Below the pieces are notes generated by a model, which was not told where the DNA came from, searched no databases, and saw only the letters and a program-made list of their open reading frames with translations. Position numbers and translations under genes: made by a program. Of a DNA stretch of 52,652 nucleotides, positions 4,927 to 38,226 are shown one piece after another. The stretch is from Hahella sp. HN01 (lineage in GTDB: Bacteria > Pseudomonadota > Gammaproteobacteria > Pseudomonadales > Oleiphilaceae): NCBI RefSeq assembly GCF_018986435.1, contig NZ_JAHMIN010000011.1, positions 1 to 52,652 of the forward strand. The letters are read 5' to 3'. Position 1 is the stretch's first letter. The number at the start of each line of letters is the position of its first letter.

Positions 4927-5982
<1,056 letters not shown>

Positions 5983-9418: not shown

Positions 9419-10165
9419 ATGAAAACCATAGCGGTATACAATCTCAAAGGCGGGGTGGGCAAAACCGCCACCGCCGTCAACATTGCCTATCTCAGCGCAG
9501 GAAGCGGCCAGCCAACACTTTTGTGGGACTTTGACGCCCAAGCGGCGGCGAGTTGGTATTTTCAGGTTGAGAACAGCAAGCGCAAGAAGGCGAGCAAGCT
9601 GATCAAGGACAAGCTTGCGCTGGGGGAGTTGATTCAGGGAACAGGTTATGACCGACTGGATATCATCCCCTCCGATATGAGCAACCGCAATATCGACGTC
9701 AATCTCACCGGCGTCAGCGGAGGCAAGCTCGACTCCTGGTTATCCATGCTGAGCGAGACTTACGGCGTGCTGATACTAGACTGCCCCCCTACTTTATCGG
9801 AACTGGCGTTACGCATACTCAAAGCCGCCGACGCCGTGCTGGTCACAATGATTCCGACCCATCTGTCGTTTGAAACTTATCGTCATGTGTCGGAGATGAT
9901 GGAGCAGAAGAAAATCGATTTGGCCAAACTGCATCCCGTGTTGACCATGATTGATCGCCGCAAGAGCATTCACCAGGAGTTCACCGCCAGCTGTAAAAAA
10001 ACGCTTGGTAAGACGCCTATCGGCTTTATCCCCTACTGTAGCGATGTGGAAAAGATGGGGGAGTTTCGCGAGCCCTTGCCGGTATTTGCGCCCAAGTCGC
10101 CGGCCACCCTCGCCTATCAGCTGCTCTGGGACAACATACGCAAAAAAGCTCTGCGCCGACGCTAA
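9419..10165 (+). CDS. ParA/Soj-type ATPase, orphan
   Basis: A 248-residue deviant-Walker ParA-family ATPase. The A motif is KGGVGKTATAVN at residues 10-21, with the signature Lys before GG; the A' motif is TLLWDFDAQAA (about 33-44) and the B motif is VLILDCPPTLSEL (about 120-132). The family forms ATP-bound dimers that position DNA or protein cargo. No parB, parS-like repeat or cargo gene is adjacent: thrS is divergent upstream and the downstream gene converges. The lone context leaves the cargo unknown; chromosomal partition is unlikely, because that ParA normally lies near gidAB. Confidence 0.85.
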   Translation: MKTIAVYNLKGGVGKTATAVNIAYLSAGSGQPTLLWDFDAQAAASWYFQVENSKRKKASKLIKDKLALGELIQGTGYDRLDIIPSDMSNRNIDVNLTGVSGGKLDSWLSMLSETYGVLILDCPPTLSELALRILKAADAVLVTMIPTHLSFETYRHVSEMMEQKKIDLAKLHPVLTMIDRRKSIHQEFTASCKKTLGKTPIGFIPYCSDVEKMGEFREPLPVFAPKSPATLAYQLLWDNIRKKALRRR

Positions 10166-10198
10166 GGTCGGCATAGGGGGAGGGAACAGACTCGACGA

Positions 10199-11182
10199 TC
10201 AGTTACCGATCATGCCCATTTCCCGATAGTATTTTTCAGCGCCGGCGTGCAGCGGCGCGGTCAGACTATCGAAGATCATCTGTTCTTTCTTCAGATTAGC
10301 CAGCGCGGGATGCAGGCGTCGAAACAGGTCGAAGTTCTCGAACACCGCCTTAACCACACTGTAAACCACCTCATCGGACACCGCCGTCGTCGTCACAAAG
10401 GTAGCGCCAACGCCGAAGGTGTTCACGTCCCGCTCATTACCCCGATACATTCCACCGGGCACCACAGCGCGGCGATAGTAAGTGTTGGCGCGAATGAGCT
10501 TGTCGATTTCGTCACCTTCCACCGACACTAACACGCTGTCGCACAGAGTTGTCGCCTCTTTCACTGCGCCGCTTGGATGGCCCACGATATATAGCATTAC
10601 GTCAATCTGGCCGGAACATAGCGCTCTCGGTTGTTCGATAGCCTTGATTTCCGAGGCGGACTTGAAATCATTGAGGGACCAGCCATACGCATTCATCAGC
10701 ACTTCCATGGTGCCACGCTGGCCAGATCCTTCATTACCCACATTGACCCGCTTACCCTTCAAGTCCTTAAAACTTTTCACATTGGCGTCTTTACGCGCCA
10801 CGATGGTAAACGCCTCCGGGTGGATAGCGAACACCGAACGCAGCTCTTTGTGAGGTCCCGCTTCTTTGAAAATACTGCTGCCATGGTACGCATGAAATTG
10901 CCAGTCGGACTGCACAACCGCGAAGTCCACTTCACCAGCGCGTAATGCGCGTAGGTTGTAGGGCGACCCATCCGTGCTTTCAACGAAGCAGCGAAAGCCA
11001 TACTCCTTACTGGACTTGTTCACCAGCCGACAAATAGCGCCGCCGGTAGGAAAATACACTCCGGTTTCATTGCCGGTAGCGATACTGATGTGAGAAGGCG
11101 TGTCTGCGGAATACGTCAATGTGGCGCATAGCGCTGCAATGCTCAGAACCAAGAAGCGCAGCATAGCGTTAATCAATGGCAT
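10199..11182 (-). CDS. TAXI-family TRAP transporter solute-binding protein
   Basis: A periplasmic substrate-binding protein of the TAXI (TRAP-associated extracytoplasmic immunogenic) family. A Sec signal (LRFLVLSIAALCATLTYS, cleavage near YSA-DT) precedes the start of the mature domain with ISIATGNETGVYFPTGGAIC; the family motif region VQSDWQFHAYHGS and the segment KRVNVGNEGSGQRGTMEVL follow. I chose ATG 11182 (MPLINAML, about 327 aa); ATG 11164 (MLRFLV) is nearly as good, and a TTG further upstream seems unlikely. Neither start has a strong ribosome-binding site. No DctQM membrane subunits are adjacent, so it either serves a distant permease or has a sensory role. Confidence 0.88.
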   Translation of the reverse strand: MPLINAMLRFLVLSIAALCATLTYSADTPSHISIATGNETGVYFPTGGAICRLVNKSSKEYGFRCFVESTDGSPYNLRALRAGEVDFAVVQSDWQFHAYHGSSIFKEAGPHKELRSVFAIHPEAFTIVARKDANVKSFKDLKGKRVNVGNEGSGQRGTMEVLMNAYGWSLNDFKSASEIKAIEQPRALCSGQIDVMLYIVGHPSGAVKEATTLCDSVLVSVEGDEIDKLIRANTYYRRAVVPGGMYRGNERDVNTFGVGATFVTTTAVSDEVVYSVVKAVFENFDLFRRLHPALANLKKEQMIFDSLTAPLHAGAEKYYREMGMIGN

Positions 11183-11303
11183 TGGGAGATGAGTACCTGC
11201 TTTCAAGACTGCTTTACGTAAACCGGGTGATGTATAGGCCCGCAAGCCGCTTTACAACCCAATTTACTATTCAATTCCAGACGCTTACTAATTAATTATA
11301 GTC

Positions 11304-11327
11304 AAAGAAGGGCCCTTGACCGGGCCC
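11304..11327 (-). terminator. Probable terminator of the RND operon
   Basis: About 45 bases after the RND stop, GGGCCC and GGGCCC (self-complementary arms) flank a 6-base loop and are followed on the minus strand by TTCTTTG. This is a modest intrinsic terminator at the expected place. Confidence 0.5.
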
Positions 11328-11369
11328 CGTTCGTTACAGAGATATACGACGGCTATGTCGTCCGGCGTG

Positions 11370-13763
11370 TCAAACGCCCCCTTCAGCAGCTTTCGCCTTG
11401 GCGACCATCTTCTCTGGATTAAGCAGAAAACGGGCCAATGCCGGCAGCAGCCACAATGCGCCAACCATGTTCCAGAGGAACATAAAGAACAGCAGCAGCC
11501 CCATATTCGCCTGCAGTTTGATGGGCGAGAATATCCAGGTGCATACGCCAATCGCCAGCGTAATCCCCGTAAACATCACCGCTTTACCCGTGGAGCGCAA
11601 CGTTTCGAAATACGCATCCTGCAAGCTTTTGCCTTCCAGGATATAGTACTCAAACTTGGTGTAGATATAGATGCCGTAATCCACGCCAATGCCCACTCCC
11701 AGTGCAATCACCGGCAAAGTTTCAACTTTGATGCCAATCCCCATCTGCGTCATCAGCGCTTCGCACAGGATTGAGGTCAAGCCAAGGGGTACAACGATAC
11801 ACAACACCGCGCGGATAGAACGGAACGTGACAAAGCAGAGTACGCTGACCACCGAGTAAACGAAGATCAGCATCAGGTCCTTGGCTTTGGAAATAACCTG
11901 GTTCGTGGCCGCATCCACGCCGGCGTTGCCCGCCGCCAGCAGCAATTGGTAGTCGTCATTGGCGTTCTCGCGTGAGAAGGCCTCTATGGTGTCCACCACC
12001 CGCTGCAAGGTTTCCGCCTTGTGATCCTCCAGGAAAGCCAACAAGGGCGTCATACTGCAGTCAGAGTTCACCAGCCCGGACGGCGCACGCTGGATGGAAG
12101 AGTTGATAATCTGCTGATTACGGGACAGTTCGTACCACTTAAAGTTACCTTCATTCAGCGCTTTGGTGACGATTTTGGATACAGTCGCCAACGAGGCGGT
12201 CGACTCGACGCCAGGCGTGTTTTCCAGCACCCACTGCAGATCATCCATTCCTTTCATGACCGGATAACTGGAGCATTTTTCCCTATCCGTCTTCACCATC
12301 ACCACCATGACGTCCGAGCTGGTGCTGTAGTTGTTGATGATAAAGTCATTGTCTCGGTTGTATCTGCTGTCAGGGCGCAGTTCAGCGGCTCCCTTGTCCA
12401 GATCGCCGATCTTCAGGCCTTGCTTGTAGTAAATCCCCAGGCCGGCGCCGACCAATGCGATCAACAAAGATACTCGCGCCACCGAAGGATGTGCGAAATA
12501 AGACATGCGCAGCCATTTTCGGTCGCGCTCTTCGCCCCGGTTCTTCTGATGCTTGATCCCAGACTTGGTGATGCCCACATAGGAAAGAATAATCGGGTGC
12601 AACACCAGGTTAGTGATGATGATCACCGCTACGCCAATGCTGGCGGTGACTGCGAGATCCTTGATGACGTCAATCTTAATAAACAGCAGCGTCAGGAAGC
12701 CCATCGCGTCGCTCACCAACGCCAGCATCCCAGGGATATACAGCGCCCTGAACGCCAAACGCGCGGAAGTGGTGGCGTCAAACCCACGAGCCGACTCAAT
12801 GGACATTGCGTTGACGATTTGTACGCCATGGCTGATGCCGATAGCGAACACCAGAAACGGCACCAGAATAGAGTAAGGATCAATCCCATATCCCAGCAGA
12901 CGCAAGATCCCAACCTGCCAGATCACCGCCACGATGGAAGCCAGAACCGGCGTCAAAGTGCCGGACCAACAGCGCGAGTACCAGTACAACAGCACGATGG
13001 TAAGCACAATGGCGACCAGGAAGAACAACACGACAGAGCGCATGCCTTCGATCAGATCCCCCAGCTTCTTCGCAAAACCAATGGCGTAGATATGAATATT
13101 GGGGTTTTGCGCCTGAAACTTCTCCCGGATATTCGTCTCCAGATCACGAGAGAATTGTTCGTAATTCAGCGATTGCCCGGTATCCGGGTCCACCTCCAGC
13201 AGAGGCGCATAAATAATGACTGAGCGGAAGTTGTCCGCCACCAGCCTTCCCACTTCGCCGGAGCGCAAAATATTCTGGCGCAGCTTGTCCAGGCTTTCCT
13301 GACTGCCGTTGTACCCATCGGGAATAACTGTTCCGCCCTGAAAACCTTCCTCTGTAACTTCCACCCAGCGCACATTGGGGGTCCATACAGAACGTACGCC
13401 AGAGCGGTCCACGCCGCGCAGATAAAACACTTCATCCGTAATCTGCTTCAGAGTTTCCATGTAGGAATCAGTAAAGATATCCCCCTCCTCGACCGCCACC
13501 GCGATACGAATGGAGTTCCCGAGATTCTCCAGGTCGTCCCTGTTCTCAAGCATATTCTGGATGTAAGGATGCTCCAGCGGGATCAATCTCTCAAAGCTGG
13601 AGTCCGGCTTGATTTTGGCCGCACTGAAAGCCATGAAAACGGTGATCGCCAGGAAAGCGATAAGAATGATCAGGCGGTTGTTAAACACCAGCCGCTCCAG
13701 CCACGGCTCCGCCTTCGGCGTTAAAATGAAGTGATCGCCTTGATCGTGTAACTTGTTCGACAT
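11370..13763 (-). CDS. RND-superfamily (MMPL-type) transporter
   Basis: A 797-residue inner-membrane protein of the RND/MMPL superfamily. A first membrane helix (LIILIAFLAITVFMAFSAA, about 30-50) is followed by a large extracytoplasmic loop (about 50-225), five helices (about 228-400), a second helix-plus-large-loop repeat (about 425-620), and five closing helices. This is the two-fold repeated RND plan with sterol-sensing-like segments such as VIALGVGIGVDYGIYIYTKF. It has no companion membrane-fusion protein, unlike drug-efflux RND pumps. AGGGGAAA lies just upstream of the ATG. It is the last gene of an operon with DUF1329 and YCF48-like genes, which in other proteobacteria accompanies transport of hydrophobic compounds. 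The substrate here is unknown. Confidence 0.9.
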   Translation of the reverse strand: MSNKLHDQGDHFILTPKAEPWLERLVFNNRLIILIAFLAITVFMAFSAAKIKPDSSFERLIPLEHPYIQNMLENRDDLENLGNSIRIAVAVEEGDIFTDSYMETLKQITDEVFYLRGVDRSGVRSVWTPNVRWVEVTEEGFQGGTVIPDGYNGSQESLDKLRQNILRSGEVGRLVADNFRSVIIYAPLLEVDPDTGQSLNYEQFSRDLETNIREKFQAQNPNIHIYAIGFAKKLGDLIEGMRSVVLFFLVAIVLTIVLLYWYSRCWSGTLTPVLASIVAVIWQVGILRLLGYGIDPYSILVPFLVFAIGISHGVQIVNAMSIESARGFDATTSARLAFRALYIPGMLALVSDAMGFLTLLFIKIDVIKDLAVTASIGVAVIIITNLVLHPIILSYVGITKSGIKHQKNRGEERDRKWLRMSYFAHPSVARVSLLIALVGAGLGIYYKQGLKIGDLDKGAAELRPDSRYNRDNDFIINNYSTSSDVMVVMVKTDREKCSSYPVMKGMDDLQWVLENTPGVESTASLATVSKIVTKALNEGNFKWYELSRNQQIINSSIQRAPSGLVNSDCSMTPLLAFLEDHKAETLQRVVDTIEAFSRENANDDYQLLLAAGNAGVDAATNQVISKAKDLMLIFVYSVVSVLCFVTFRSIRAVLCIVVPLGLTSILCEALMTQMGIGIKVETLPVIALGVGIGVDYGIYIYTKFEYYILEGKSLQDAYFETLRSTGKAVMFTGITLAIGVCTWIFSPIKLQANMGLLLFFMFLWNMVGALWLLPALARFLLNPEKMVAKAKAAEGGV

Positions 13764-19394: not shown

Positions 19395-20222
19395 TCAAGC
19401 GGCGACTGAAACTTCGTATGACGTAAATTTGCGAATGTTGATGCAGCCGGTATCCAGGATCAGATACTGCCCTTTGATACCGAGTAATGTACCACTAATT
19501 TCCGGCTCTTTTTCCGGATTCAGGCTAACCACCTTCTGCGGATACTGCATCACTGGAAAGGCGATGTCGACCACCTCCGCAGACGTCAAAATTTCCATGT
19601 TATCCGCGCCCTCGGCGCAGCGTAGACCTTCCAGCGACCCTTCCAGCTCGGCCAGCAAACGGTCTCTTTCCGCGACCAGGTCCAGCGGCTCAGGATCGCC
19701 CTTGAGCATTGCGCGCCAATTGGTTCTATCCGTCACCGATTGCCGGAAGATCGCTTCCACTAACCCGGACATCCGGCGCGTAGTGACTTCCATGATGGGC
19801 AGAGCCTGAGTTGCGCCCTGATCAATCCAGCGGGTAGGCGTCTGGGTTTTACGGGTAATGCCGACTTTAACTCCCGATGAGTTGGCCAGATACACCACAT
19901 GCGGAACCATGCAGTGGGTTTCCCCCCACTCAGGCTCCCGGCAGGTGCCGGCGAAAAAGTGGCATTTTTCCGGGCTCATAATGCAGCTGTCGCAACGCGC
20001 CAGTTTTTTGAAGCAGGGGAAGCAGAACCCCTGACTGAAGCTCTTTTTAGTCGAGCGGCCGCAATGATTGCAGACAATCTTACCGCTGAATTTAATCTGA
20101 AGTGATTTGCCGAGCAGAGGATTCAACTCCACCCGTTCATCGCCAACCACCAGGCTGTAGTTGACGGGGTTATCGAGCTGGCTGAACATTTTCTCCAGAC
20201 AGCCTTGAGCTACTTCCCTCAA
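19395..20222 (-). CDS. DUF2797 zinc-ribbon protein
   Basis: A 275-residue DUF2797 protein of unknown function. The N-terminal half has a cysteine-rich region, CNHCGR, CFPC, CDSC, then Cys in EKCHFFAG and GTCREPEWGE, that should bind zinc. The middle resembles a GIY-YIG-like segment (HVVYLANSSGVKVGIT). I place the start at the TTG at 20222 (M/L-REVAQGCLEKM): it has AAGGGG 7 bases upstream and gives the N-terminus seen in relatives, while no in-frame ATG lies further upstream. The stop falls at the edge of pepN, indicating coupling. Its steady association with pepN suggests a shared transcript more than a shared function. Confidence 0.85.
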   Translation of the reverse strand: MREVAQGCLEKMFSQLDNPVNYSLVVGDERVELNPLLGKSLQIKFSGKIVCNHCGRSTKKSFSQGFCFPCFKKLARCDSCIMSPEKCHFFAGTCREPEWGETHCMVPHVVYLANSSGVKVGITRKTQTPTRWIDQGATQALPIMEVTTRRMSGLVEAIFRQSVTDRTNWRAMLKGDPEPLDLVAERDRLLAELEGSLEGLRCAEGADNMEILTSAEVVDIAFPVMQYPQKVVSLNPEKEPEISGTLLGIKGQYLILDTGCINIRKFTSYEVSVAA

Positions 20223-20308
20223 GTGAGTCCCCTTGGTTCTAAATTCATCTCTCAATTATTGTTATTGTCGAAACGCGCGCTCCCGTCGCAACGAAAGCGA
20301 AGCTTCGA

Positions 20309-20593
20309 TCAATGCTTGGAAACGCCGCTGTCGGGCGTCCATACGCCGGAAGAAGATTCAGCCGCGGCCGCCTTCAAAGCACAAGGCGTCGGCCGATCTC
20401 TTTCTATATACCCCACCCGCTGCTCTTCAGGCACATTGTGGGAAATTTCGTAGGTGATAAGCGCCTCCATGCAGAGCTCTTTCTGTTCCATTGATAATTT
20501 TTTGCCGTCCGGCCACTTCCCCAACTCCAAGGCTGTCTTCATGGCCTCATAGATCTCCGGAGTCAGGTTTTTTACTGCATTTTCAAAGGACAT
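20309..20593 (-). CDS. YeaC-like protein (DUF1315)
   Basis: A 94-residue cytoplasmic protein of the YeaC/DUF1315 family. It starts MSFENAVKNLTPEIYEAMKT and has the family core LELGKWPDGKKLSMEQKELC followed by the acidic AYE-like helix and EEQRVGYI. The function is unknown. The ATG at 20593 is preferred over one six codons earlier because relatives begin with this Met. A promoter is visible upstream (20621-20650), and the DUF2797 gene follows after 86 bases. Confidence 0.88.
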   Translation of the reverse strand: MSFENAVKNLTPEIYEAMKTALELGKWPDGKKLSMEQKELCMEALITYEISHNVPEEQRVGYIERDRPTPCALKAAAAESSSGVWTPDSGVSKH

Positions 20594-20620
20594 AAGGGGT
20601 CTCCAGCACAATGTTGCGGA

Positions 20621-20650
20621 CTATAACATAAGGGCGATCCGACATTTCAA
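20621..20650 (-). promoter_or_regulatory. Probable sigma70 promoter of the yeaC-like gene
   Basis: On the minus strand TTGAAA and TTATAG are separated by 18 bases, giving a start about 30 bases before the ATG. It is independent of the Fur box, whose near edge is 31 bases further upstream. Confidence 0.5.
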
Positions 20651-20671
20651 TAAAATTCTGGTGAAAAAGTG

Positions 20672-20699
20672 TTGACTTACAAATGATAATCATTATCAT
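20672..20699 (+). promoter_or_regulatory. Rightward sigma70 promoter with no annotated gene
   Basis: TTGACT (20672-20677) and TATCAT (20694-20699), each one mismatch from consensus, are 16 bases apart. The spacer and -10 lie inside a perfect Fur palindrome, so iron-loaded Fur should block the promoter. No plus-strand gene follows; the next gene on the right is on the other strand. Confidence 0.7.
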
Positions 20700-20701
20700 T
20701 T
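20681..20701. promoter_or_regulatory. Fur box
   Basis: AAATGATAATC followed by ATTATCATTT is a perfect 10-1-10 palindrome and almost identical to the classical 19-bp Fur consensus GATAATGATAATCATTATC. It is the only such site I saw in the window. Confidence 0.9.
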
Positions 20702-20705
20702 GCAT

Positions 20706-20841
20706 TGTGTGTTTGATCCCACACAGCTCTCATCAGAGTATTCACAGCTACTTGGGGGATGCGCATCAACGGAGGCTGGATAAATCAGCTCTGCAACTTG
20801 GTTTAACCGTTATGCTCCGTTGATGCCTTCCCCATCTTTTT
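20706..20841 (+). ncRNA. Candidate Fur-regulated small RNA
   Basis: The transcript predicted from the Fur-controlled promoter would run about 136 nt. It begins with a hairpin TGTGTG/CACACA (about 20706-20725), has a mostly single-stranded centre (20726-20754), and ends in a long stem, GCATCAACGGAG (20763-20774) with CTCCGTTGATGC (20815-20826). GGGG (20755-20758) pairs outside that stem with CCCC (20830-20833), followed by ATCTTTTT. The last 39 nt are antisense to the end of the rhomboid gene. The only plus-strand frame of note is 15 codons (ATG 20759). Fur-repressed small RNAs (RyhB, PrrF) are the obvious functional parallel, but I see no sequence match to either. Confidence 0.5.
20755..20841 (+). 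terminator. Terminator-like stem at the end of the candidate small RNA
   Basis: A perfect 12-bp stem (20763-20774 with 20815-20826) is topped by a 40-base loop with a nested GCTG/CAGC hairpin. An outer GGGG/CCCC helix leads straight into ATCTTTTT. The long loop is unusual for an intrinsic terminator, and the right arm also encodes the C-terminus of the rhomboid protein on the other strand. Confidence 0.5.
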
Positions 20842-21699
20842 CCCACTTGTTTTTAGCCACAACGCCATTGACGTCAAGCCAAACCAAAAGCCGACGAAGT
20901 GCGCGGTATTGGCGAACGACACGCCAAATTGATCAGAGACGCCCAACATCCCCGCCAACATCCACACAATACTGAAAATCACCATCGCGGAAGGCGCCCA
21001 CATTCGCATACTCGGCGCTAACGCCCAACCCGCCGCATGGGCGCCAACCAAAGCGTAAGCGACGCCTGAGAAACCACCGAACGCAGGCCCCGCCACCAGA
21101 TATTGGGCGAGATTACTGAAGATCGCCGCCCCCAGAATGAACGAAACGAATCCACCCCGGCTGAACAAGACTTCCAGAGAGCGCCCAAAGATCCACAACG
21201 CAAGAGAGTTAAACAGCCAGTGCGCCAGCCCCAGGTGCAACCATGCGGGAGACAGCAGACGCCACCACTCCCCTTGCTGTAGCGTAAACAACAAGGACTG
21301 TACACGGGAGGGCAAATCCCCGTAAGGCAACTGAAAACGATCGATAATGAAGAAGTAACGACTGCTCTGAAAGTCGCCGAAGCCGGTGTACAAAGCCGCC
21401 GCCAGCAACGTCAGCAGTAACCATGCGATACAGGGGAAAGGCTTGAACTGCATTGTCAGACTGTTGCCGTTGGACTGCGGTTGCTCGCTTACAGCCTCAT
21501 CCAGTCGCTCGCGAACGCCAGGATCTTCTTTGAAGCGCTGATAGCAGTCCAGCACGACAGATTTGGCGGCGGGATCTTTCACCCATATTTCCTGCCGTCC
21601 TTCATTCTCGGTGACCCATATCGCAACGCCTCTGCTGCGCAGATAGCGATACAGCGACTCAATGTCTTCTTCGATAGGGATATCGCAAACTTTTTCCAT
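20803..21699 (-). CDS. Rhomboid-family intramembrane serine protease (GlpG-like)
   Basis: A 298-residue inner-membrane protease. An N-terminal cytoplasmic domain of about 85 residues (MEKVCDIPIEEDIESLYRYL) resembles the GlpG cytoplasmic domain, and six membrane helices follow. The catalytic Ser is in GFSGVAYAL and the catalytic His in ANTAHFVGFWFGL, the two residues of the rhomboid dyad; the oxyanion helper lies in LAHWLFNSLALW. ATG 21699 is chosen because it begins four bases after the upstream phosphoesterase stop and gives the GlpG-like N-terminus; a start 18 codons earlier would overlap that gene. It is the third gene of nadK-phosphoesterase-rhomboid. Confidence 0.92.
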   Translation of the reverse strand: MEKVCDIPIEEDIESLYRYLRSRGVAIWVTENEGRQEIWVKDPAAKSVVLDCYQRFKEDPGVRERLDEAVSEQPQSNGNSLTMQFKPFPCIAWLLLTLLAAALYTGFGDFQSSRYFFIIDRFQLPYGDLPSRVQSLLFTLQQGEWWRLLSPAWLHLGLAHWLFNSLALWIFGRSLEVLFSRGGFVSFILGAAIFSNLAQYLVAGPAFGGFSGVAYALVGAHAAGWALAPSMRMWAPSAMVIFSIVWMLAGMLGVSDQFGVSFANTAHFVGFWFGLTSMALWLKTSGKKMGKASTEHNG

Positions 21700-21703
21700 G
21701 TGT

Positions 21704-22693
21704 TCAGCGCCCGGCGGCGCCCCCCGCTTCACGCATGACATCGACCCAGACAAAGTTGTCCGCCGTCAGTTTGCGGGCTCCCGCTTCGAGCCGGTAGGCC
21801 ACCAGCTTGCCGTACTTCACTGCGCTGTAATCCAGGCAGGCGATATTCGGACGAATAGGACGCGGCGCGCCTTGCAGCCAGTAATGTCCAACGAACAAAG
21901 GCGGCTCATCCAGACCATAAAACAAAAGCATGCGTCGCTCTCGCTCCGACAAGCGTCTTTCCGCCACTTCGTCAGGCAGAGCATCCGGCTGAAACACGAC
22001 GTCGCCGTAGGTTTCAGGCTCCGCCTTCCAGAACTTGGTGCGAAATGCGGTGCGCACAAAGCCATCGCTGCTGCGAATAGACATGCCATCAGGGAGTTTC
22101 ATATCCGTGCCGCGTAACAGCCGGTCCATCACATGACCGGCAAAACTGTCACGCACGGTGGAGGCATGCAGAAAGTCTTCCGTGATAAGACCATCGGGGT
22201 GATGCTCCAGAAACTGTGAAATCAGATCATGATCCCAGCATGCGTGAACAACCCGGAAACTCTGATCGTCAATCACCAGCGGCAACGTCATGAACCATTC
22301 AAGAAATTCATTCCATTCATGCCCGTAATTAGCGAACTGATCCAGCGTTTCCCGAATCAATCGCTCATGACGGGGCGTATGTTCGCGCAAATAGGTATGG
22401 GCGCTGCCTGGACGCGCCCGGGTGCAATAGCCCAGGGCGTTATACTCATGATTGCCCATGACAATACGCGCGCTGCCGTGCTCCACCATATCCCGCACGA
22501 CATGCAGCGCTTCGCGGATACGGGGACCGCGATCGACGATATCGCCAACATAAATAGCTTGACGATGCTTATGACTGTATACGCCGTTGATTTTCCGGTA
22601 GTCGAGCTTCTCCAGCAATGCTTCCAGGGTTCTGGCGCATCCGTGGACATCGCCGATGAAGTCAAAGCCTCGGTACTTCTGGCTCTCGGACAT
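21704..22693 (-). CDS. Calcineurin-like metallophosphoesterase
   Basis: A 329-residue cytoplasmic phosphoesterase of the ApaH/PrpE-like class. Metal-binding motifs are all present: GDVHG (residues 14-18), GDIVDRGP (about 50-57), GNHEYNALGY (about 80-89), and later His residues in VVHACWDHD and FVGHYWLQG. The likely chemistry is hydrolysis of a phosphoester or dinucleoside polyphosphate; the substrate cannot be read from sequence. It lies four bases after nadK and four bases before the rhomboid gene, so the three are co-translated. Confidence 0.9.
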   Translation of the reverse strand: MSESQKYRGFDFIGDVHGCARTLEALLEKLDYRKINGVYSHKHRQAIYVGDIVDRGPRIREALHVVRDMVEHGSARIVMGNHEYNALGYCTRARPGSAHTYLREHTPRHERLIRETLDQFANYGHEWNEFLEWFMTLPLVIDDQSFRVVHACWDHDLISQFLEHHPDGLITEDFLHASTVRDSFAGHVMDRLLRGTDMKLPDGMSIRSSDGFVRTAFRTKFWKAEPETYGDVVFQPDALPDEVAERRLSERERRMLLFYGLDEPPLFVGHYWLQGAPRPIRPNIACLDYSAVKYGKLVAYRLEAGARKLTADNFVWVDVMREAGGAAGR

Positions 22694-30899: not shown

Positions 30900-30976
30900 T
30901 GGCGGAGCGGACGGGACTCGAACCCGCGACCCCCGGCGTGACAGGCCGGTATTCTAACCGACTGAACTACCGCTCC
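30900..30976 (-). tRNA. tRNA-Asp (GTC), copy 2 of the operon
   Basis: A 77-nt cloverleaf with acceptor GGAGCGG/CCGCTCC, discriminator G, encoded CCA and anticodon loop CTGTCAC (anticodon GTC). The last tRNA of the Val-Asp-Val-Asp operon in the direction of transcription. It differs from the other Asp copy by one base in the D loop (AGTCGG here, AGTTGG in the other). Confidence 0.97.
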
Positions 30977-31000
30977 GCGAAAATCCATCTTTGGGGAAGA

Positions 31001-31076
31001 TGGTGGGTGGTGCAGGGATCGAACCTGCGACCCTCGCCTTGTAAGGGCGATGCTCTCCCAGCTGAGCTAACCACCC
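31001..31076 (-). tRNA. tRNA-Val (TAC)
   Basis: A 76-nt cloverleaf with acceptor GGGTGGT/ACCACCC, A73, encoded CCA and anticodon loop CTTACAA (anticodon TAC). It is separated from the following tRNA-Asp by 24 bases. Identical in its visible sequence to the other Val copy. Confidence 0.97.
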
Positions 31077-31112
31077 AGTTCCAGATGAACTGGCTCTTGA
31101 CTAAATAGAAAG

Positions 31113-31189
31113 TGGCGGAGCGGACGGGACTCGAACCCGCGACCCCCGGCGTGACAGGCCGGTATTCTAACCAACTGAACTACCGCTCC
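31113..31189 (-). tRNA. tRNA-Asp (GTC), copy 1 of the operon
   Basis: The same 77-nt structure as the copy at the left with anticodon GTC and encoded CCA. The D loop reads AGTTGG. It lies 20 bases after the first tRNA-Val in transcription order. Confidence 0.97.
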
Positions 31190-31209
31190 ACGATCTCTAT
31201 TTCAGAATT

Positions 31210-31285
31210 TGGTGGGTGGTGCAGGGATCGAACCTGCGACCCTCGCCTTGTAAGGGCGATGCTCTCCCAGCTGAGCTAACCACCC
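31210..31285 (-). tRNA. tRNA-Val (TAC), first tRNA of the operon
   Basis: A 76-nt cloverleaf with anticodon TAC and encoded CCA. It is the first transcribed tRNA, about 70 bases downstream of the predicted start from the promoter at 31362-31390. Confidence 0.97.
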
Positions 31286-37641: not shown

Positions 37642-38226
37642 ATGGCATTTGAACTTCCTGCTCTCCCTTACGAAAAGAATGCGCTAGCGCCGCACATTTC
37701 CGAAGAAACTATCGAATACCACTACGGTAAACACCACAAAACTTATGTTGATAAGTTGAACGGTCTGGTTCCCGGAACTGAATACGAAGGGAAGTCTCTG
37801 GAAGAGATTATCGTGGCTTCCAAGAGCGGCCCTGTTTTCAACAACGCCGCCCAGATCTGGAACCACACTTTCTACTGGCACTGCCTGAGCCCTAACGGCG
37901 GCGGCGAGCCTACTGGCGAGCTGGCGGACGCCATCAACAAAACTTTCGGTTCCTTCGAAAGCTTCAAAACCCAATTCACTGACAAAGCCGTTAACAACTT
38001 CGGTTCCGCTTGGACCTGGTTGGTCAAAAACGCTGACGGCTCACTGGAAATCTTCAACACCAGCAACGCAGGCACGCCAATGACTGACGGCAAAACCGCA
38101 CTGCTGACCGTTGACGTATGGGAACACGCTTACTACATCGATTACAGAAACGTTCGTCCTAACTACATGAATGCGTTCTGGAATCTGGTGAACTGGGATT
38201 TCGTCGCCAAAAACCTGGCCGCTTAA
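37642..38226 (+). CDS. sodB: Iron superoxide dismutase
   Basis: A 194-residue Fe-type SOD that removes superoxide in the cytoplasm. Metal ligands are seen as His in EETIEYHYGKHH, His in AAQIWNHTFYWHCL, and Asp and His in LLTVDVWEHAYYIDYRN. The FYWHCLSP and GSAWTWLVKN segments point to the iron type. The length matches SodB (about 193). In many bacteria sodB mRNA is destroyed by Fur-regulated small RNAs under iron starvation; a candidate of that kind lies at 20706-20841 in this window. Confidence 0.97.
   Translation: MAFELPALPYEKNALAPHISEETIEYHYGKHHKTYVDKLNGLVPGTEYEGKSLEEIIVASKSGPVFNNAAQIWNHTFYWHCLSPNGGGEPTGELADAINKTFGSFESFKTQFTDKAVNNFGSAWTWLVKNADGSLEIFNTSNAGTPMTDGKTALLTVDVWEHAYYIDYRNVRPNYMNAFWNLVNWDFVAKNLAA

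Follow-up and report, generated by a model that had tools for sequence, protein, structure and literature searches.

A PrrF-like, Fur-controlled small RNA predicted between yeaC and a rhomboid protease gene in Hahella and its marine relatives

Small RNAs that spare iron have been described in several bacteria. In Escherichia coli, the Fur-repressed RNA RyhB lowers iron-using proteins in iron shortage, and nearly all sequenced Pseudomonas carry two copies of a comparable RNA, PrrF1 and PrrF2 (excerpt of PMC4211561; Rfam family RF00444). The targets named for PrrF include acnA, acnB and sdh (excerpt of PMC8534726). Besides, ArrF of Azotobacter and NrrF of Neisseria are presented as iron-repressed PrrF homologs (excerpt of PMC2851614), and it is by description, not by sequence, that we liken the locus reported here to these two. 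In the open-licence literature, we found no report of a PrrF-type RNA in Hahella, Marinobacter or Oleiphilus: Marinobacter occurred together with PrrF only in a reference, PrrF was absent from the best 10 of 118 matches listed for PrrF with marine genera, Hahella was absent from the best open-licence matches listed for Hahella chejuensis and Fur, and no text on PrrF was found to contain the string CUCAUCAG.

The sequence analysed here (the window) comprises 52,652 nucleotides from Hahella sp. HN01 and forms the start of contig 3 of the 7.13-Mb genome. Positions 20706-20841 most likely hold a real gene of a known kind, and the reading supported best by the sequence is an iron-repressed, non-coding, trans-acting RNA that would work like RyhB or PrrF. 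More specifically, we consider it highly probable that this segment encodes a Fur-repressed small RNA of the PrrF sort, predicted to pair in trans with the mRNAs of iron proteins and thereby to spare iron. When iron is plentiful, iron-loaded Fur on 20680-20702 would block the promoter; when iron is short, this repression would be lifted and the RNA made. Its core, CUCUCAUCAGAGUAUUCACAGC, which has a hairpin on its 5' side and the terminator hairpin on its 3' side, would then pair with the ribosome-binding regions of iron-protein mRNAs, the best candidates being acnB, leuC, one bacterioferritin and sdhC; with pairing probably involving Hfq, translation would be blocked and iron spared. Transcription, Fur and Hfq binding and target repression are thus steps that we infer. 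The genome has one hfq gene and two FUR-family genes, the stronger match of which is presumably Fur. If correct, PrrF-type iron sparing would reach beyond Pseudomonas into marine Hahella, Marinobacter and Oleiphilus, where the Rfam cut-off hides the RNA.

An earlier note on this DNA had proposed a near-consensus rightward promoter, which our scan recovered as the sigma-70-type site TTGACT-16-TATCAT on the plus strand (20672-20699). Promoter-like sites in the 3-kb region occur at chance level (two found versus a shuffle mean of 1.8), and it is conservation rather than the promoter score that lifts this one: in 57 of 62 related loci among the matches listed, TTGAC precedes TATCAT by 15-19 bases. 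Its spacer and -10 element are covered by a Fur box that is kept in relatives. The palindrome was rightly called perfect, although its arms reach one base further on each side than the 20681-20701 first given, making an 11-1-11 palindrome at 20680-20702 with a 7-1-7 core at 20684-20698. No other palindrome of this kind with arms of at least 10 and no other 7-1-7 Fur site with up to two mismatches were found in the window, and the two overlapping matches to the 19-bp Fur consensus with up to three mismatches both fall on this box (0.02 expected). Judged by shuffles, the Fur box and the fold described next exceed chance; the promoter alone does not.

The predicted RNA runs on the plus strand from 20706, placed seven bases past the -10 element, to a T run ending at 20841. 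It would open with a hairpin, UGUGUG...CACACA (20706-20725), followed by the antisense core, (G)CUCUCAUCAGAGUAUUCACAGC, at 20726-20749, supported by PrrF alignment, relatives and target pairing, and by a long intrinsic terminator (20753-20841). Within the terminator stem (20753-20834) lies the 12-bp perfect inverted repeat 20763-20774/20815-20826, ahead of TTTTT at 20837-20841; the earlier note had likewise described a 12-bp perfect stem. The 140-nt fold has an energy of -50.3 kcal/mol (z -4.49), matched by none of 200 shuffles; a terminator scan, limited to loops of 3-8, gave no report of 20753-20841. As to size, the anticipated length of about 136 nt is that of the H. chejuensis-like clade; 61 of 67 transcripts extracted from relatives measure 70-138 nt, and the other six were extracted too short, ending at an internal T run.

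To the left of the RNA lies a yeaC-like gene (20309-20593, minus strand) and to its right a rhomboid protease gene (20803-21753, minus strand); both annotations were confirmed by Pfam (yeaC corresponds to DUF1315), and both genes are neighbours in relatives as well. A 261-base query matched 14 of 58 genomes, the own genome among them. The entire segment was matched in G001, G002 and G005, and in G003, G004, G006, G011 and G019 only about 20660-20757 (promoter, Fur box, 5' hairpin and core) was, with a different terminator behind. Four of the five shortest matches (G012, G024, G028 and G029) represent a more diverged element between yeaC and rhomboid; the fifth, in G015, was rejected as a copy, having only a Fur-like box and neither gene adjoining. 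A lack of the promoter-stem arrangement in close relatives had been named beforehand as what would speak against the RNA; on inspection, the arrangement is present there, between yeaC and rhomboid. Across Hahella, Marinobacter and Oleiphilus relatives, the order is TTGAC, Fur box, 5' hairpin, CUCAUCAG core and terminator; the 5' hairpin is replaced between clades and terminators change, while the core is kept.

A pattern scan of named genomes for a Fur half-site plus CTCTCATCAG returned at least 119 loci, and among those listed 59 have both yeaC and rhomboid nearby, three have one of them and 57 have neither. In all 59 the element is placed between the two genes. The 62 listed loci with neighbours belong mostly to Marinobacter, further to Hahella, Oleiphilus, Oleiphilaceae, two gammaproteobacterial MAGs and one MAG labelled Halomonas; the 57 without, mostly from unrelated phyla, look like chance matches. 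Core constancy in the 62 loci is given by construction, because the core formed part of the pattern, which does not apply to the loci found by DNA similarity. A looser pattern occurred in 19 of 293 genomes of the order, namely in 10 of 13 same-family genomes and in nine others, whose loci have neither yeaC nor rhomboid adjoining. The three same-family genomes lacking an exact match to the looser pattern (G178, G241 and G281, genus g12) likely carry diverged Fur boxes rather than having lost the element, and G178 has a match to the PrrF model. The own genome holds a single match to the Fur-half plus core pattern, a kind of search that a diverged second copy would escape. Separately, a second near-perfect pair of Fur-like boxes with a conserved downstream segment, lacking the CUCAUCAG core, was seen at L020 (G000 contig 48, 82454-82493), with counterparts at L015, L016 and L017 in G005, G001 and G002.

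The stems are also kept by compensating changes. RNAalifold on the family-wide alignment A2 gave an implausible helix (-0.99 kcal/mol) and was discarded, and for this reason covariation was counted on 22 Marinobacter-type sequences only, by shuffles that ignore the relatedness of these sequences. Over three helices, 97.8% of cells were paired compared to 94.4% in shuffles (reached by 0 of 500), and sliding the partners by one base lowered pairing to 48-53%. Five pairs had changed on both sides (2.3 in shuffles, reached by 5 of 500), as had 20 cells (6.0 in shuffles, reached by none of 500), and the covariation score was 0.193 versus 0.130 (0 of 500). The number of further pair types, a weak measure, was 15 against 13.5, with 66 of 500 shuffles as high. 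In the 5' hairpin of locus L009, one stem pair is altered on both sides (GCGUGU...CACGCA).

How does this RNA relate to PrrF? The earlier note could see no sequence resemblance, a statement contradicted by the CUCAUCAG core and by covariance-model matches in both directions, though these run through intermediates. In a 701-base search, 20672-20842 scores 25.7 bits against the Rfam PrrF model (E 0.041), where the RF00444 gathering cut-off is 90 bits; nothing in the region matched at the gathering threshold, and the RyhB family is not among its Rfam matches up to E 10. Among 16 loci, the model matched 10 at 29.4-44.5 bits (E up to 0.5) and gave no match at L001, L003, L005, L006, L008 and L009. 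Among 194 genomes of the order, 32 were matched at E <= 0.001: seven above the cut-off, all of family f20, which is presumably Pseudomonas (127-159 bits), six of the same family as the window (Marinobacter copies, 36.7-44.5 bits) and 19 others (33.9-84.4 bits). None of 14 control genomes matched. Five of the six same-family matches coincide with a match to the looser pattern, the exception being G178; the own genome and G036 went unmatched in this search, which used stricter filters.

As the RF00444 model contains the Fur box, a second model was built from the 22 Marinobacter-type RNAs without it. Run over 25 sources, it matches the Pseudomonas-type loci L159 (32.5 bits, E 2.2e-5), L160, L162 and L165, genus g7 and Oleiphilus-type loci (L010-L013 and L082), loci in several further families of the order and, within Hahella, L008 alone (23.6 bits, E 0.003). 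Matches to L009, L007 and L106 are weak (E 0.04-0.26), and there is none to the window's own element, L005 and L006, which are the most divergent in their short hairpin and long terminator. We therefore call the window RNA a PrrF-like small RNA of the iron-sparing sort, probably of shared descent with PrrF, and not a formal member of RF00444. In another family of the order, three PrrF-model matches stand in a row at L177 (G136 contig 8, 352239-352926; 50-60 bits, below the cut-off), all three of them also found by the Marinobacter-type model.

By layout, the candidate resembles PrrF1/PrrF2 in having a Fur box over the promoter of an apparently intergenic, non-coding RNA with a Rho-independent terminator, and an open CUCAUCAG core with a 5' hairpin ahead of it and the U-tailed terminator behind. 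It differs in the 5' hairpin, in the much longer terminator of the Hahella clade and in copy number: one copy was found in this genome, two being usual in Pseudomonas and not strictly defining. The likeness to RyhB lies in the common logic, here predicted. An unlikely alternative is that the RNA is real and iron-sparing, yet unrelated to PrrF by descent, CUCAUCAG having arisen twice because both RNAs were selected, both behind Fur boxes, to pair with the same acnB site. The part common to PrrF and the Hahella RNA is short, 5' hairpins and terminators differ among clades, the Fur box is part of the PrrF model, and the locus is a different one, with no yeaC or rhomboid match beside any of 20 retrieved PrrF-model loci (L159-L178), all of which would fit convergence. 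However, PrrF-model scores are graded across the families of the order, from 159 down to 34 bits, the model without the Fur box still matches Pseudomonas-type PrrF, and in the genus g7 loci the stretch in common is longer (CUCAUCAGGAACUUCACGG versus CUCAUCAGGCUAAUCACGG), which argues for shared descent.

Two further readings involve the neighbouring genes. The last stretch of the terminator (20803-20841) runs antisense to the rhomboid gene's 3' end, and the two transcripts would therefore overlap. It is improbable that the RNA works in cis on this convergent mRNA, whether instead of or besides any action in trans: in L035 the rhomboid match likewise ends inside the RNA (at 5113; RNA 5044-5130), and the rhomboid neighbour is kept in relatives, but the overlap falls in the variable terminator outside the conserved core, the rhomboid match ends beyond the RNA in several relatives (e.g. 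L005 and L010), and a convergent 3' overlap need not regulate. On the other side, the earlier note had assigned yeaC a promoter of its own away from the Fur box, which was not borne out, as our scan of 19500-22500 turned up nothing promoter-like on the minus strand. That the Fur box serves yeaC, with no functional RNA on the right, is very improbable: the box does lie between yeaC and the RNA, and in the relatives listed 51-251 bases (median 86) separate its centre from where the yeaC match starts, but the minus strand of the window locus gave no promoter-like site, and the rightward promoter, conserved in 57 of 62 listed loci, is followed by a conserved hairpin, core and terminator. Fur may additionally control yeaC alongside the RNA. 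Elsewhere in the window, four tRNA genes (Asp-Val-Asp-Val, 30900-31285, minus strand) look as if a pair of tRNA genes had been duplicated in tandem.

That the transcript serves as mRNA for a small protein is scarcely credible, for although frames of 46 and 15 amino acids exist, the former (20683-20823, plus strand) begins within the Fur box, 5' of the predicted transcription start, and had no match in a Pfam search, the latter lies within the clade-specific terminator, and a complete frame of at least 10 amino acids occurs in only 8 of 61 extracted transcripts (some of the 61 too short). This agrees with the earlier statement that no plus-strand gene follows the promoter, and with a non-coding RNA of the Fur-repressed, iron-sparing class, frames not being kept in relatives. 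The 15-codon frame (20759-20806, its ATG following GGGGG) is probably not a gene, because, judged by eye, its stop is lost in G005, although the frame persists in G002.

Returning to the PrrF-like, trans-acting RNA, the clearest result on its predicted targets is the comparison of acnB leaders. Every one of the 25 genomes that carry acnB, ranging from Hahella to the Pseudomonas type and many of them close relatives, has the motif TGATGAGGG, a complement of the core, at -16 or -17 ahead of the start codon (G003 had no acnB match), whereas background leaders lack it (0 of 357 and 0 of 331). Its nine columns are 100% identical in the 24 aligned leaders, the G179 leader having been read apart from these, where the preceding 20 bases average 60% identity. 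The right half of the motif covers the likely Shine-Dalgarno sequence, so ribosome binding may account for part of this conservation.

The leuC leader, by comparison, varies by clade yet remains complementary to the core. Of 26 leuC leaders found, 25 were counted, G003 being dropped as its start could not be placed as in the others. The leader carries GAAUACUCUGAGG in G000 and G005 and, with one mismatch, in G002 (H. chejuensis types). G004, G006 and three of four Pseudomonas-type genomes share CUGAUGAGG, whilst 10 of 12 genomes of the Marinobacter type have GUGAGAGAG; of three g7 genomes, two have GGAGAGAGAUC and the third GGAGAGGUC. Background leaders do not contain GTGAGAGAG (0 of 357 and 0 of 331). 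That site is missing from G017 and G020, and G017 lacks any good one. When cores and leaders were cross-paired, leuC leaders paired best with the core of their own clade in three of six clades (Hch, g7 and Mar, not Hga, G019 and Pse), as against one of six for acnB and one of four for sdhC, which supports co-evolution of leuC with the RNA only in part. In P. aeruginosa, LeuC falls, together with KatA, upon treatment with the iron-withholding protein calprotectin (excerpt of PMC8557868). We tentatively suggest, with a little less than even confidence, that CUCAUCAG and the acnB leader form one old pairing unchanged from Pseudomonas-type genomes to Hahella, and that the leuC site has been rewritten along with clade-specific parts of the RNA (GAAUACUCUGAGG, GUGAGAGAG and GGAGAGAGAUC). 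If true, this would be a natural record of how a small RNA and its targets change in step about one invariant pairing, and it offers a testable case of such change, with acnB fixed and leuC clade-specific.

Energy-based ranking gave a more mixed picture of the candidates. Scores combined duplex energy with the cost of opening the target over -75 to +40, and ranks count the background genes scoring as well or better among 357 Hahella and 331 Marinobacter genes (the latter from G026); these came from a simple gene caller with heuristic starts, and sodB and acnA lie in stretches used as Hahella background. In Hahella, ranks of 357 were high for leuC (0), bfr1 (1) and sdhC (8), then 16 for sdhD, moderate for sodB (39) and acnB (54), poor for bfr2 (168) and acnA (266), and 168 and 350 for two ferritin-like genes, the latter figure being that of the second one. 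The sodB gene, encoding an iron/manganese-type superoxide dismutase, is a moderate predicted target within the window itself (37642-38226, plus strand). In Marinobacter, ranks of 331 were 1 for a ferritin-like gene, 3 for leuC, 11 for acnB, 55 for bfr and 87 for sodB, then 93 for another ferritin-like gene, 126 for acnA, 132 for an acnD-like gene, 248 for sdhC and 320 for sdhD. For leuC, acnB, acnA, both bfr and sdhC, the gene names were compared with NCBIfam. The predicted partners acnB and sdhC are also PrrF targets, going by those listed in the excerpt of PMC8534726; we count it against the reading that classic targets are middling or fail (acnA and the second bfr in Hahella, sdhC and sodB in Marinobacter).

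A shuffle test with 150 shuffled cores and 110 background genes used the set sodB, sdhC, leuC, acnA, acnB and bfr, leaving out sdhD, the other ferritin-like genes and the acnD-like gene. In Hahella, where the homologous GTG start taken for sdhC was chosen after its ranking had been seen, none of the shuffled cores reached the set and one did without leuC, which was absent from the advance target list and had entered via an aconitase family search. With 6 and 18 of 150 being the corresponding figures in Marinobacter, the signal by energy is modest there and clear in Hahella. The acnD-like leader L231 of G006 (Hahella ganghwensis) pairs very well with the core (-18.25 including the opening cost), which its counterparts in G024 and G026 do not.

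As a target finder in the own genome, the exact 10-mer complement CTGATGAGAG was abandoned: it occurs at nine places, one being the locus, versus four for the reversed pattern, and none of its forward-strand sites at L209, L213, L214 and L215 lies at a recognised iron gene (the reverse-strand sites L210, L211, L212 and L216 and the locus copy L208 were left out). Periplasmic nitrate reductase is rich in haem and iron-sulphur. Its genes napA, napC and napB, which form one operon, are among the ten best of the 331 Marinobacter background genes, found with no list used, and ACCUGAUGACAGGGAUA stands directly before napA at L291 (G026 contig 19, 400001-420000; genes at 10154-13727, minus strand).
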